Shown: positions 54,598 to 58,142 of the stretch, in pieces
Layout of the letters: every line of letters starts with the position of its first letter
How positions within the stretch are numbered: position 1 is the stretch's first letter
NCBI RefSeq assembly: GCF_037963145.1
Contig: NZ_CP150144.1
Span: 1,054,001 to 1,118,000, forward strand
From: Oceanobacillus sp. FSL K6-2867
GTDB lineage: Bacteria > Bacillota > Bacilli > Bacillales > Amphibacillaceae
Direction of reading: 5' to 3'
DNA length: 64,000 nt
The notes under the pieces: generated by a model
The model's input: the letters and a program-made list of their open reading frames with translations, nothing else
What the model was told of the DNA's origin: nothing
Database searches by the model: none
Position numbers and translations under genes: made by a program

Positions 54598-54894
54598 TTA
54601 GCTATCTCCCAAAATCGATGGTACGCGGAAATGACCGTCTTGATGATCAGGAGCATTCTTGAATGCTTCCTCTTGAGTAATCCAGTCTTTTGGTTCATCT
54701 TTGCGCATTATATTTTTCAAATCAAGTACATGTGTTGTCGGCTCAATACCGTCTGTATCCAATTCATTCAATTGTTCAGCATAATCGATAATTGCACTCA
54801 GTTCATCTGCAAGCTGCTCTACTTCTTCGTCAGTTACAGCAAGTCTTGCTAAGTGTGCGACATGTTTCACTTCTTCTTTTGAAATATCTGCCAT
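54598..54894 (-). CDS. gatC: Asp/Glu-tRNA amidotransferase subunit C
   Basis: 98 residues starting [20 protein letters not shown], with the usual GatC C-terminal line ([30 protein letters not shown]). It wraps around GatA and GatB and stabilises the complex. ATG 54894 follows GGAGG eight bases upstream. It is the first gene of gatCAB. Confidence 0.96.
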
Positions 54895-55050: not shown

Positions 55051-55087
55051 AAAAAAAGACCTGAAACAGGTTCCACTCCGTTTCAGG
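55051..55087 (-). terminator. Terminator of the RRNPP regulator-peptide unit
   Basis: Minus-strand arms CCTGAAAC and GTTTCAGG with a 12-base loop, followed by a seven-base T run. It lies 54 bases after the stop of the peptide gene at 55141, which marks that ORF as the true end of the transcript. Confidence 0.85.
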
Positions 55088-55140
55088 CAAATCCATCATA
55101 TAGTAATAGGGTAAAAAATTGAAATACTTAAAGTTAAAAC

Positions 55141-55287
55141 TTAGAAAGATATACTTGAACTACTGACGTTTAAAATGCTAGGCTCTTTTTCGCCAGTTGC
55201 AAAATCGTCTTGCTGTACACCCTGGGCAAAAAAGAATCCAGTAGCCAGTATTACACCTAATGCAATACCTGAAATCAGCTTTTTCAT
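55141..55287 (-). CDS. Secreted signalling-peptide precursor (48 aa), NprX-like
   Basis: A 48-codon ORF starts with ATG four bases after GGAGGGGAG, 13 bases past the stop of the HTH-TPR regulator. It has a basic start (MKK), a hydrophobic export segment (LISGIALGVILATGFFFA, residues 4-21), a short hydrophilic part (QGVQQDDFATGEKE) and a C-terminal PSILNVSSSSISF. This is the layout of NprX/PapR/Phr propeptides, whose C-terminal 5-8 residues are released and re-imported. By analogy with NprX (SKPDIVG) a fragment around EPSILNV could be the signal. The precise mature peptide is inference. Confidence 0.75.
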   Translation of the reverse strand: MKKLISGIALGVILATGFFFAQGVQQDDFATGEKEPSILNVSSSSISF

Positions 55288-55300
55288 TTTCTCCCCTCCT

Positions 55301-56572
55301 TTACAGGCTAATTAAATTATCATAAGTTGAATTTGCAAGCTTATAATACTTTACAGCATCTTTATACTTATATTGCTCTTCAAAGTGTCTGGCCAACATA
55401 GTTGAGTAGTATACTAAGTTAGCATGATCACTATGTTTCTTTAAAAATGGTATAAACTTATCTTTAACTAATGATACAAATTGATTATTTTCTCCATTGG
55501 TAGCATATTCAAACGTATGAATGATATAGGAGTATATTTTAGAGTAACTATCATCCTTAGCAAGGCCAAGTATGTTCTGGGCTTCCACAATTGCATCTTT
55601 CGTTTCTTTTATTTTATCTATATTATAGAACTCTTTAATAATTGAAGTTATTGCAATTAACCGATCTTCTAAATGTACATTTTCATCATTTACAACTTCT
55701 TCTAAAAACTTAATCGCTTCCTGTGTCTCACCTAATGCAGAGTGCAAGTAACCTAAGTTTAAATTGGTTAGCTGAATAATTTGCTTATCTTTATTCAATT
55801 CTCCTAAGTGCTTAGCCAAATTATAGTTTTTTATTGCTCGTTCATGCATTTTAATCCGTCGATAAGAGATTCCTAAAATAATATGACATTGTGCACATCG
55901 CTGGAAATTATACTGTTTCATAAAAATTTCTAACGCTTGATTTGCATAGTCAATCGATTCTAATGTATTTCGCAGCTTACTATGGGTAACTGAAATTGTA
56001 TATTGAAGATCAGCTACTTGATCTTCAGATAATTCAATTTTATTAATTTTCTCTTCTGCAGTTTTATACATACTTAATGCTTGATTATAGTCTGTATCTT
56101 TCAGCGAATAATAATTCCCTTTAAATTTAAACCAATAAAACTGTTGCAAACTATCGAATGTATTGGCAATCTCACTCAATTCATTAATCTTTTTCAACGC
56201 TTCATTAAAATTACCCAATATGAGACAGTACCTAACCTTATGAATCTCAAACATTAGCAAGCTATTCGAGAGGTTTTTGTCCAGCATTTCCTGAATTTCT
56301 TCGTATGTAGTTATAATTTCTTCTTTATTGTTAACCTCAAACAGCATGCTATACCACTTGTTGCACTTTTCTTTAATCAATTCTTCCTGACTGTTGTCAA
56401 TCTCAATCCCAAGGCGATTGCATAATAATTGAATAATATCGGGACTTGCCTGGGTTTTCTGATTCTCGATTTTTGATAAATAGGAGACAGAAACGATTCC
56501 TTCTGAAAGCTCATTTAAGGTCATTTCCTGTTTCGTACGCTGTAATTTAATAAAGGATCCTATATCTATCAA
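55301..56572 (-). CDS. RRNPP-family quorum-sensing regulator, NprR-like
   Basis: 423 residues, the length of NprR. An Xre-type HTH fills residues 5-60 (FIKLQRTKQEMTLNELSEG; VSYLSKIENQKTQASPDIIQ). Helical TPR-type repeats follow to the end (for example YRRIKMHERAIKNYNLAKHL, LGYLHSALGETQEAIKFLEE, then EEQYKYKDAVKYYKLANSTY). RRNPP regulators bind imported peptides in the TPR groove. Start TTG 56572 is preferred, five bases after AGGGTGG; GTG 56581 lies in the RBS. The peptide gene follows in the same transcript. Confidence 0.88.
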   Translation of the reverse strand: MIDIGSFIKLQRTKQEMTLNELSEGIVSVSYLSKIENQKTQASPDIIQLLCNRLGIEIDNSQEELIKEKCNKWYSMLFEVNNKEEIITTYEEIQEMLDKNLSNSLLMFEIHKVRYCLILGNFNEALKKINELSEIANTFDSLQQFYWFKFKGNYYSLKDTDYNQALSMYKTAEEKINKIELSEDQVADLQYTISVTHSKLRNTLESIDYANQALEIFMKQYNFQRCAQCHIILGISYRRIKMHERAIKNYNLAKHLGELNKDKQIIQLTNLNLGYLHSALGETQEAIKFLEEVVNDENVHLEDRLIAITSIIKEFYNIDKIKETKDAIVEAQNILGLAKDDSYSKIYSYIIHTFEYATNGENNQFVSLVKDKFIPFLKKHSDHANLVYYSTMLARHFEEQYKYKDAVKYYKLANSTYDNLISL

Positions 56573-56615
56573 AATACCCACCCTAACATATTCAGAAATA
56601 TTTTTATTTACTAGT

Positions 56616-56624
56616 ATTATACCA
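56616..56624 (-). promoter_or_regulatory. Extended -10 promoter of the RRNPP regulator
   Basis: TGGTATAAT on the minus strand, 44 bases before the TTG start. No good -35 hexamer, as is common for extended -10 promoters. Confidence 0.6.
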
Positions 56625-56953
56625 TATTTAGCGAAGTTGCATATTGGGAAAATCGTAGGTAAAAAGGATGTGTAACAACACTTTTGTTTTCTTGATTTTC
56701 CTGACAGAGGAAAATTCCCGGGGTTTCTGGCTTTTTTCTAATATTATGACTGAATGTTGAGTATACTTAGTATATAGAGGGTTGAAAAGGAAAAATTAAA
56801 GTTATTGGGGAACAGAAATGACTCAATTGGTACCAATTTTCATTCGATTTTTTCTCACTCTAAAAAAAAATTATACCATTTTCAATTCGAATAACTATGA
56901 ATAATTAGTCTTATTTTAAATCTTAAATTTTGAAAGACTAGGAAGACAGATAT
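56625..56953. other. Intergenic region between the RRNPP regulator and camS
   Basis: AT-rich, no gene. It contains several A/T tracts and the dyad-like AGTATACTTAGTATATAG near 56760, which could be an operator. Confidence 0.3.
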
Positions 56954-57020: not shown

Positions 57021-58127
57021 CTAATGAAAAATATGAACAGTTGGCGATTCATCACCAGCATTGCGATAAATTAAACTTTCATCTTGATTACTGGATGTAA
57101 TGTTAATTTCCAGATCATAATAGTTTGAGAACATGTCTTGTACAAGACCATAGGCATATTGGGTGAAACCCATTACCTCTGCTTTTCCATAAAACTCAAT
57201 TGGAACCTCAATGGTTAACTTTTGCAATTCACCATCGATATAAAAGCCTTCTCCAATTAAACCGACATAGTTAGGGAAAAACTCTGCGATTTCATTGCCA
57301 AAGCTAGTTACAATTTCATGATCATCGTAATATTTTTCTCTTCCTTCAGCTGAAGGGAATAGAATATTTTCCTCATCAACATCTTCCCAATCATTTATCG
57401 AACTGCTTCCACCTTTTACATTTGCTTTAGCAACAAAGTTTCCTGGTACAGGTGATGATTGTTCTGCTTCTTTATACAATGCAACCATGATTGGAATGTC
57501 CCCTAGTCCTTCCTCTTGGCGGATTTCCTCTACAACAGCTTCAGCGATCCGATCACCTTGCTCAAGCATATCTTCCTCTGAAATATTTTCATAATAATAT
57601 GGTCCGCCAATTTCGGTTTGGAAGCGATAAACGGATTTCAAAGCAATTCCGATAGACATTCCTGCGATTTGTACGGTACCATCTTCATTATGTTTTAAAT
57701 AATTTTGTTCAAGAATATGTGATAAATAACGCGGATTGTCCCGATACGTGTCCTCATCCGATCCAGTTTCCACTTTTGGGTTCAGTCCATCGATCCATTC
57801 ATAAATTTTATCAGACGTTAAATATTGGCCTTCTTGAAAATAGAAATCATTTGGATCGTAGGCGTCCTTTGATAATCGTTGCAGACCTTGCTCCATTTCA
57901 TCAATATCTACTCGGTTTGCCAATTGATTGACAATAGCACCTCTAGCCTGGCTCGTTTTGTATGGCAGTATCATTTTATAATTTTCATCCGATAATTGAT
58001 AGCTTGGAACAATGGACGTTTCTTGTTCTGTATCGTCATTTTGCAGCACTTCTTCTTCCGCCGGTTTTTGTACACAGCCTGTTATAAAAAGGAGTGTACA
58101 TAGTAAAACAGCACTTATTTTTTTCAA
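57021..58127 (-). CDS. camS: CamS family lipoprotein (sex pheromone precursor family)
   Basis: About 368 residues. Lipoprotein signal KKISAVLLCTLLFITGC with Cys 18 or so, then the CamS domain (YQLSDENYKMILPYKTSQARG, YLSHILEQNYLK, GMSIGIALKSVYRFQTE, MVALYKEAEQSSPVPG, FPNYVGLIGEGFYIDGEL). In Staphylococcus the signal peptide of CamS yields a pheromone for enterococcal plasmid transfer; whether that holds here is unknown. Start TTG 58127 or 58133 after GAGGAG. Same order after ligA as in B. subtilis (yerH). Confidence 0.9.
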   Translation of the reverse strand: MKKISAVLLCTLLFITGCVQKPAEEEVLQNDDTEQETSIVPSYQLSDENYKMILPYKTSQARGAIVNQLANRVDIDEMEQGLQRLSKDAYDPNDFYFQEGQYLTSDKIYEWIDGLNPKVETGSDEDTYRDNPRYLSHILEQNYLKHNEDGTVQIAGMSIGIALKSVYRFQTEIGGPYYYENISEEDMLEQGDRIAEAVVEEIRQEEGLGDIPIMVALYKEAEQSSPVPGNFVAKANVKGGSSSINDWEDVDEENILFPSAEGREKYYDDHEIVTSFGNEIAEFFPNYVGLIGEGFYIDGELQKLTIEVPIEFYGKAEVMGFTQYAYGLVQDMFSNYYDLEINITSSNQDESLIYRNAGDESPTVHIFH

Positions 58128-58142
58128 AGTCAAACACTCCTC

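Follow-up and report, generated by a model that had tools for sequence, protein, structure and literature searches.

In a 64,000-nt stretch of the genome of Oceanobacillus sp. FSL K6-2867 (NZ_CP150144.1, positions 1,054,001 to 1,118,000, hereafter the window), a gene for a regulator with a helix-turn-helix (HTH) domain and a tetratricopeptide repeat (TPR) superhelix is followed directly by a 48-codon gene. We propose that the two genes very probably form a quorum-sensing pair of the RRNPPA, NprR type, in which the small protein would be a pheromone precursor that is exported, trimmed to the octapeptide GEKEPSIL, re-imported and bound by the regulator. This reading rests on the gene pair and its conservation, by selection on the peptide, by the receptor fold in a predicted model, by a signal that is bounded by repeats in relatives, and by a conserved dyad upstream of the regulator. 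A first-pass annotation, made from the sequence alone, had already suggested an RRNPP-type pair of this layout with the signal in the C-terminal part of the precursor, which is well supported by the comparisons reported here.

Relatives were taken from two sources, i.e., 58 genomes (matches in 48; 30 loci fetched) and the GTDB genome contigs, a scan of which retained 80 of 323 relatives; the non-redundant set contains 85 regulators (without L028-L030 and L016; L089 and 20 G-handle loci were removed as duplicates). A precursor was scored when an M[KR][KR] open reading frame (ORF) of at least 40 aa with a hydrophobic run started 5-30 nt past the regulator stop. Such an ORF lies right behind 71 of the 85 regulators, against a success rate of 0.05% in first-order Markov shuffles of the same downstream DNA, and the small ORF is therefore not a product of chance; with a relaxed test the figures were 72/85 regulators and 1.4% of shuffles. 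By the distance rule L106 was scored as peptide-less, though its precursor follows a broken regulator frame at a distance of 122 nt; the downstream frame of L109 looks broken, and the regulator frame of L084 has an odd end. The proportion of nonsynonymous differences (pN) was lower than that of synonymous differences (pS) in all 11 close precursor pairs compared (pN 0.11 and pS 0.44 between the window and O. polygoni). The small ORF is a real gene under purifying selection, and thus both checks named in the first-pass annotation, co-occurrence with the regulator and conservation at the protein level, came out in its favor. The counterpart in a relative is annotated as a hypothetical protein (P0002).

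The gene structure is also largely as first described. The precursor ATG begins 13 nt past the regulator stop and is preceded by TGTAAAGGAGGGGAGAAA, a strong ribosome-binding site, and its leader, judged by pattern, consists of a charged start and a hydrophobic run. The terminator, which had been placed 54 bases behind the ORF, is present at 52 nt; terminator-like sites in the region number 5 on both strands, compared to a shuffled mean of 0.7. The regulator has the 423 residues originally given when translated from a TTG start, which agrees with a block (AGGGTGGG) conserved across 5 aligned upstream regions; an alternative GTG start would give 426 aa (55301-56581). HTH_3 is found at residues 11-62 (E 6e-10), and the TPR superhelix is of the Rap/NprR type in a predicted model.

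The extent of the putative signal can be read from the precursors of the relatives. Around a central proline, which was chosen by a score favoring this motif context, the 71 precursors have E, H or Q at P-1 (66 precursors), E or D at P-3 (61), I or V at P+2 (60) and F, L or Y at P+3 (59); in a MAFFT alignment of 13 chosen precursors, P36 is the sole invariant residue beyond the leader. Ten precursors carry tandem repeats of 2-10 copies each, 43 copies in total, with many-copy arrays in L012 (10 copies, the maximum), L070, L091 and L102. Within a precursor, the copies agree at every position from P-4 to P+3 (43/43 copies), and identity falls to 33/43 at P-5, 35/43 at P+4 and 30/43 at P+5 (L108, L110 and L014 were not counted, and copies short of the terminal position were scored as non-identical there). 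In the repeat search P-1 to P+3 were given as residue classes and P-4 to P-2 were left free. Since the tandem-repeat relatives bound the signal at P-4 to P+3, we infer for this strain that precursor residues 32-39, GEKEPSIL, are the predicted signal. Comparable tandem arrays with other cores occur in distant relatives (L126, L132, L028). The signal code is common to Oceanobacillus, Virgibacillus, Lentibacillus and Ornithinibacillus, with the core variants EPSI, HPPI and LQPxPT among relatives; as stated in the first-pass annotation, this code differs from that of NprX (SKPDIVG), yet it is widespread among these genera. When P-1 (E or H) was compared with the receptor columns for covariation (55 of the 71 rows, 8 with H), the top column was K202, kept in 47/47 E-type and 4/8 H-type rows; this amounts to 6 independent pairs, of which 3 agree and 3 show no difference (p 0.25).

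By analogy with related systems, the small gene would be produced together with the regulator, and the precursor would leave the cell by means of its Sec-type leader, be processed extracellularly to the octapeptide, and be re-imported by an oligopeptide permease, one of 11 SBP_bac_5 systems. The peptide would then bind to the concave side of the TPR superhelix and alter the shape or oligomeric state of the regulator, and hence its DNA binding. The regulator would probably act back on the promoter of its own gene through the dyad TTTTCCT-N5-AGGAAAA, and the response as a whole would depend on cell density.

NprR-NprX has the same receptor-precursor layout as the window pair, as had been claimed at first, and the same domain order, but strict membership in that system fails. 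NprR of B. thuringiensis (P0124) is 25% identical to the window regulator, below the assignment rule of at least 30% identity over at least 80% to a reference receptor (PMC10075063). In a quick, midpoint-rooted tree of 61 rows with some long branches, the window regulator falls in a 28-row clade that is joined next by a plasmid receptor of Priestia koreensis FS-1 (SH-aLRT branch support 96) and further out by a same-genus paralogue group (89); NprR of the B. cereus group and two Rap proteins lie outside a 44-row clade holding the window regulator (99). True orthology between the regulator and B. cereus NprR, which would make the pair simply NprR-NprX, is improbable given the low identity, the exclusion of NprR and Rap from this clade, and a peptide and an R126 contact that are both different, even though layout and domain order are shared, NprR (4gpk) ranks first in the profile search, one source labels the relatives P0078 and P0098 "quorum sensing regulator NprR", and the tetramer residues Y223 and F225 are retained (Y224 in 44/44 and F226 in 39/44 rows). 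The dimer residue Y410 is also kept (Y413 in 43/44 rows), and N407 is replaced by V410; among the Spo0F-binding residues E188 (E186 here) and Y223 are kept, and D107 and Y118 differ (S105 and K115). A search with the 4gpk sequence in a class-wide sample of 398 genomes found distant receptors in 9 genomes (24-28% identity), with no close relative of B. cereus NprR among them. To judge from the sequence, the window pair appears to act like NprR-NprX. The rival reading that the pair is real and the mature signal is another C-terminal part, e.g., the longer EKEPSILNV or the tail SSSSISF, is a somewhat unlikely one: in single-copy precursors P+4 (S in 38/71) and P+5 (V or I in 37/71) are fairly conserved and an SSSSxxF tail is common to the three closest species, but the repeats are uniform across P-4 to P+3 and variable beyond, three precursors (L087, L091 and L103) end at P+3, and the tails vary freely between species. 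Of the two peptides suggested in the first-pass annotation, EPSILNV overlaps the octapeptide but begins inside it and extends beyond its last residue, and SSSSISF lies in the variable tail that the same three precursors lack.

Several observations weigh against the proposed pheromone pair. The match of the leader to the Phr leader family stays below the cut-off of that family (E 0.013); the position of the NprR peptide-binding residue R126 is G123 in the window regulator, with R in 6/44 rows; no genome-wide enrichment of the dyad reveals a regulon (with up to 2 mismatches, 88 matches per strand in the own genome versus 105 for the reversed control); and 11 related receptors lack a precursor gene and work, or decay, peptide-free. 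This last point is in line with a small protein that is not a pheromone at all, i.e., a peptide that is secreted or sits in the membrane, serves a different purpose and simply accompanies the regulator. We regard this as highly improbable, since neither the Rap/NprR receptor fold nor the amplification, in several lineages, of just an 8-residue unit to 2-10 copies is easily explained otherwise.

The precursor-less receptors belong to a group of O. oncorhynchi, O. sojae, O. neutriphilus and O. jeddahense (7 receptors: L094, L095, L097, L098, L099, L101, L027) and to Aquibacillus (4: L090, L096, L100, L104). Because those placed in the tree, three from each group, are nested inside the pair-bearing clade, the simplest reading is that the precursor was lost in both groups, leaving candidate orphan receptors. 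In Virgibacillus chiguensis, the window's clade is represented by four receptor genes (L076-L079). Each is accompanied by a precursor, and in three cases the core departs from the majority type. Three receptor genes (L074, L080, L084) come from a record with the title Roseburia sp. 1XD42-34; its genes appear Virgibacillus-like and the record is probably mislabelled. The own genome has a second RRNPP-type pair (L111, G000:C1:2596998-2598236), with a receptor 33% identical to that of the window and its own precursor directly downstream, ending in ...EEGVPPLNDKEPKPKSRG.

Among other known systems, PlcR-PapR likewise consists of an HTH-TPR regulator followed by a small precursor. According to published descriptions it differs from the window pair: PlcR is placed in a five-TPR clan (PMC12700828) and PapR7 is ADLPFEF (PMC6568020). 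Rap receptors have no HTH (PMC9765709), whereas the window regulator has a DNA-binding domain, its HTH_3. Closer is P. koreensis FS-1, for which RRNPP_detector reported two plasmid NprR-NprX systems (PMC10075063). Its plasmid receptor, which groups with the window's clade, is 30.8% identical to the window regulator over the full length, and the precursor again starts 13 nt downstream with the core IEKEPGPL; this pair differs in being plasmid-borne and in having P at P+2, versus I or V in the window's kind. The receptor-pheromone kind and the signal repeats are already known, because a 2022 survey in mBio describes NprR-type receptors in 21 genera, with Virgibacillus tabulated, and a repeated signal in every one of 17 unusually long NprR precursors, and nprX duplications were seen in a 2016 study. 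This survey was the only literature found that joins NprR and Virgibacillus, and none was found on NprR or AimR in Oceanobacillus or on the peptide of this clade in a search outside supplementary tables, where the clade may be listed.

Upstream of the regulator the dyad is followed, nearer to the gene, by a conserved block (TTTTCCCAA) and TATAAT. Of the pair-bearing regulators, 36/67 have the core TTTCCT-N5,6-AGGAAA upstream, compared with 0/13 others (0.015 expected from shuffles in the whole set; 0/80 in downstream DNA), and in several genera both arms end otherwise yet still pair (CTTTCCT...AGGAAAG), which is consistent with a candidate operator of the regulator itself. A pattern search found no sigma-H-like promoter for the small gene, and no NprR box was found in PMC3325205, the one paper checked.

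The own genome contains a second exact dyad, which overlaps with the ribosome-binding site in front of an AimR-family gene (L138; PF22871, E 4e-63). This second dyad may be a chance occurrence, since exact dyads (N5-6) in the 58 genomes hardly exceed the reversed control (44 versus 37); alternatively, it could be an RNA hairpin. L138 adjoins a peptidase-M23 gene, which we take to be spoIIQ-like. Among 27 AimR-family loci the dyad is exact in 4 (own genome included) and has one mismatch in 3. The AimR-family gene is present in 18/20 pair-bearing genomes and 0/7 orphan-receptor genomes, the seven being one clade and hence one event; it is also present in four same-genus genomes (G004, G011, G021, G026) without a close receptor orthologue, which argues against a strict link. 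It is distinctly improbable, though conceivable, that the receptor clade controls both itself and the AimR-family receptor by the spoIIQ-like gene via TTTTCCT-N5-AGGAAAA, which would wire two peptide systems together near sporulation, and that in the O. oncorhynchi group, where pheromone and AimR-family genes are missing, the orphan receptor took a new role. One genome has two AimR-family genes of equal scores about 3 kb apart (G024:C4:3898739-3899725 and 3901703-3902689), perhaps a recent tandem duplication.

The host genome of the window is a single contig of 4.40 Mb (G000), and among the named relatives that were fetched, Oceanobacillus polygoni and O. profundus are the closest (regulator identity 86-87%). 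The pair sits on the minus strand between camS and the gat genes (Table 1). Of the loci, 65/80 are flanked by a camS relative on the upstream side and by a gatC or gatA relative on the downstream side, which points to vertical inheritance of the pair. The camS product belongs to the CamS lipoprotein family (PF07537, sex pheromone cAM373 precursor family), and the neighborhood is kept in relatives. The regulator has no match among 50,697 phage records and none to Pfam AimR (PF22871), on which an assignment to AimR-AimP would depend.

Table 1. Features of the regulator-precursor locus and the AimR-family gene (positions in the window unless a genome contig is named)
Feature	Position	Strand	Remarks
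gatC	54598-54894		
Intrinsic terminator behind the pair	55059-55088	minus	stem 55088-55059 plus T-run, 52 nt past the precursor stop codon
Pheromone precursor gene, 48 codons	55141-55287	minus	ATG start; MKK, hydrophobic leader, signal, variable tail
Predicted mature octapeptide GEKEPSIL	55171-55194	minus	precursor codons 32-39; by comparison with tandem-repeat precursors
Spacer, 13 nt	55288-55300	minus	carries the precursor's ribosome-binding site (AGGAGGGGAG)
NprR-type receptor/regulator	55301-56572	minus	423 aa, TTG start; N-terminal HTH (HTH_3) plus TPR superhelix
TATAAT, likely -10 of the regulator promoter	56616-56621	minus	conserved in 5 aligned upstream regions; position by eye
Conserved block GATTTTCCCAATATG	56640-56654	minus	between dyad and -10
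Dyad TTTTCCT-N5-AGGAAAA, candidate operator	56696-56714	.	spacer CTGTC; upstream of regulator; putative function
camS	57021-58133		Pfam CamS, E 6e-115
AimR-family gene (L138)	G000:C1:2746732-2747776		PF22871

The pair adds a large, apparently vertically inherited receptor-pheromone set from salt-loving Bacillaceae that belong to neither the B. cereus nor the B. subtilis group. The natural tandem repeats bound the signal to the residue and make the peptide codes, the code switches and the signal loss in two groups directly testable. If the proposed reading is right, GEKEPSIL would be a ready reagent to probe density-dependent behavior in Oceanobacillus.
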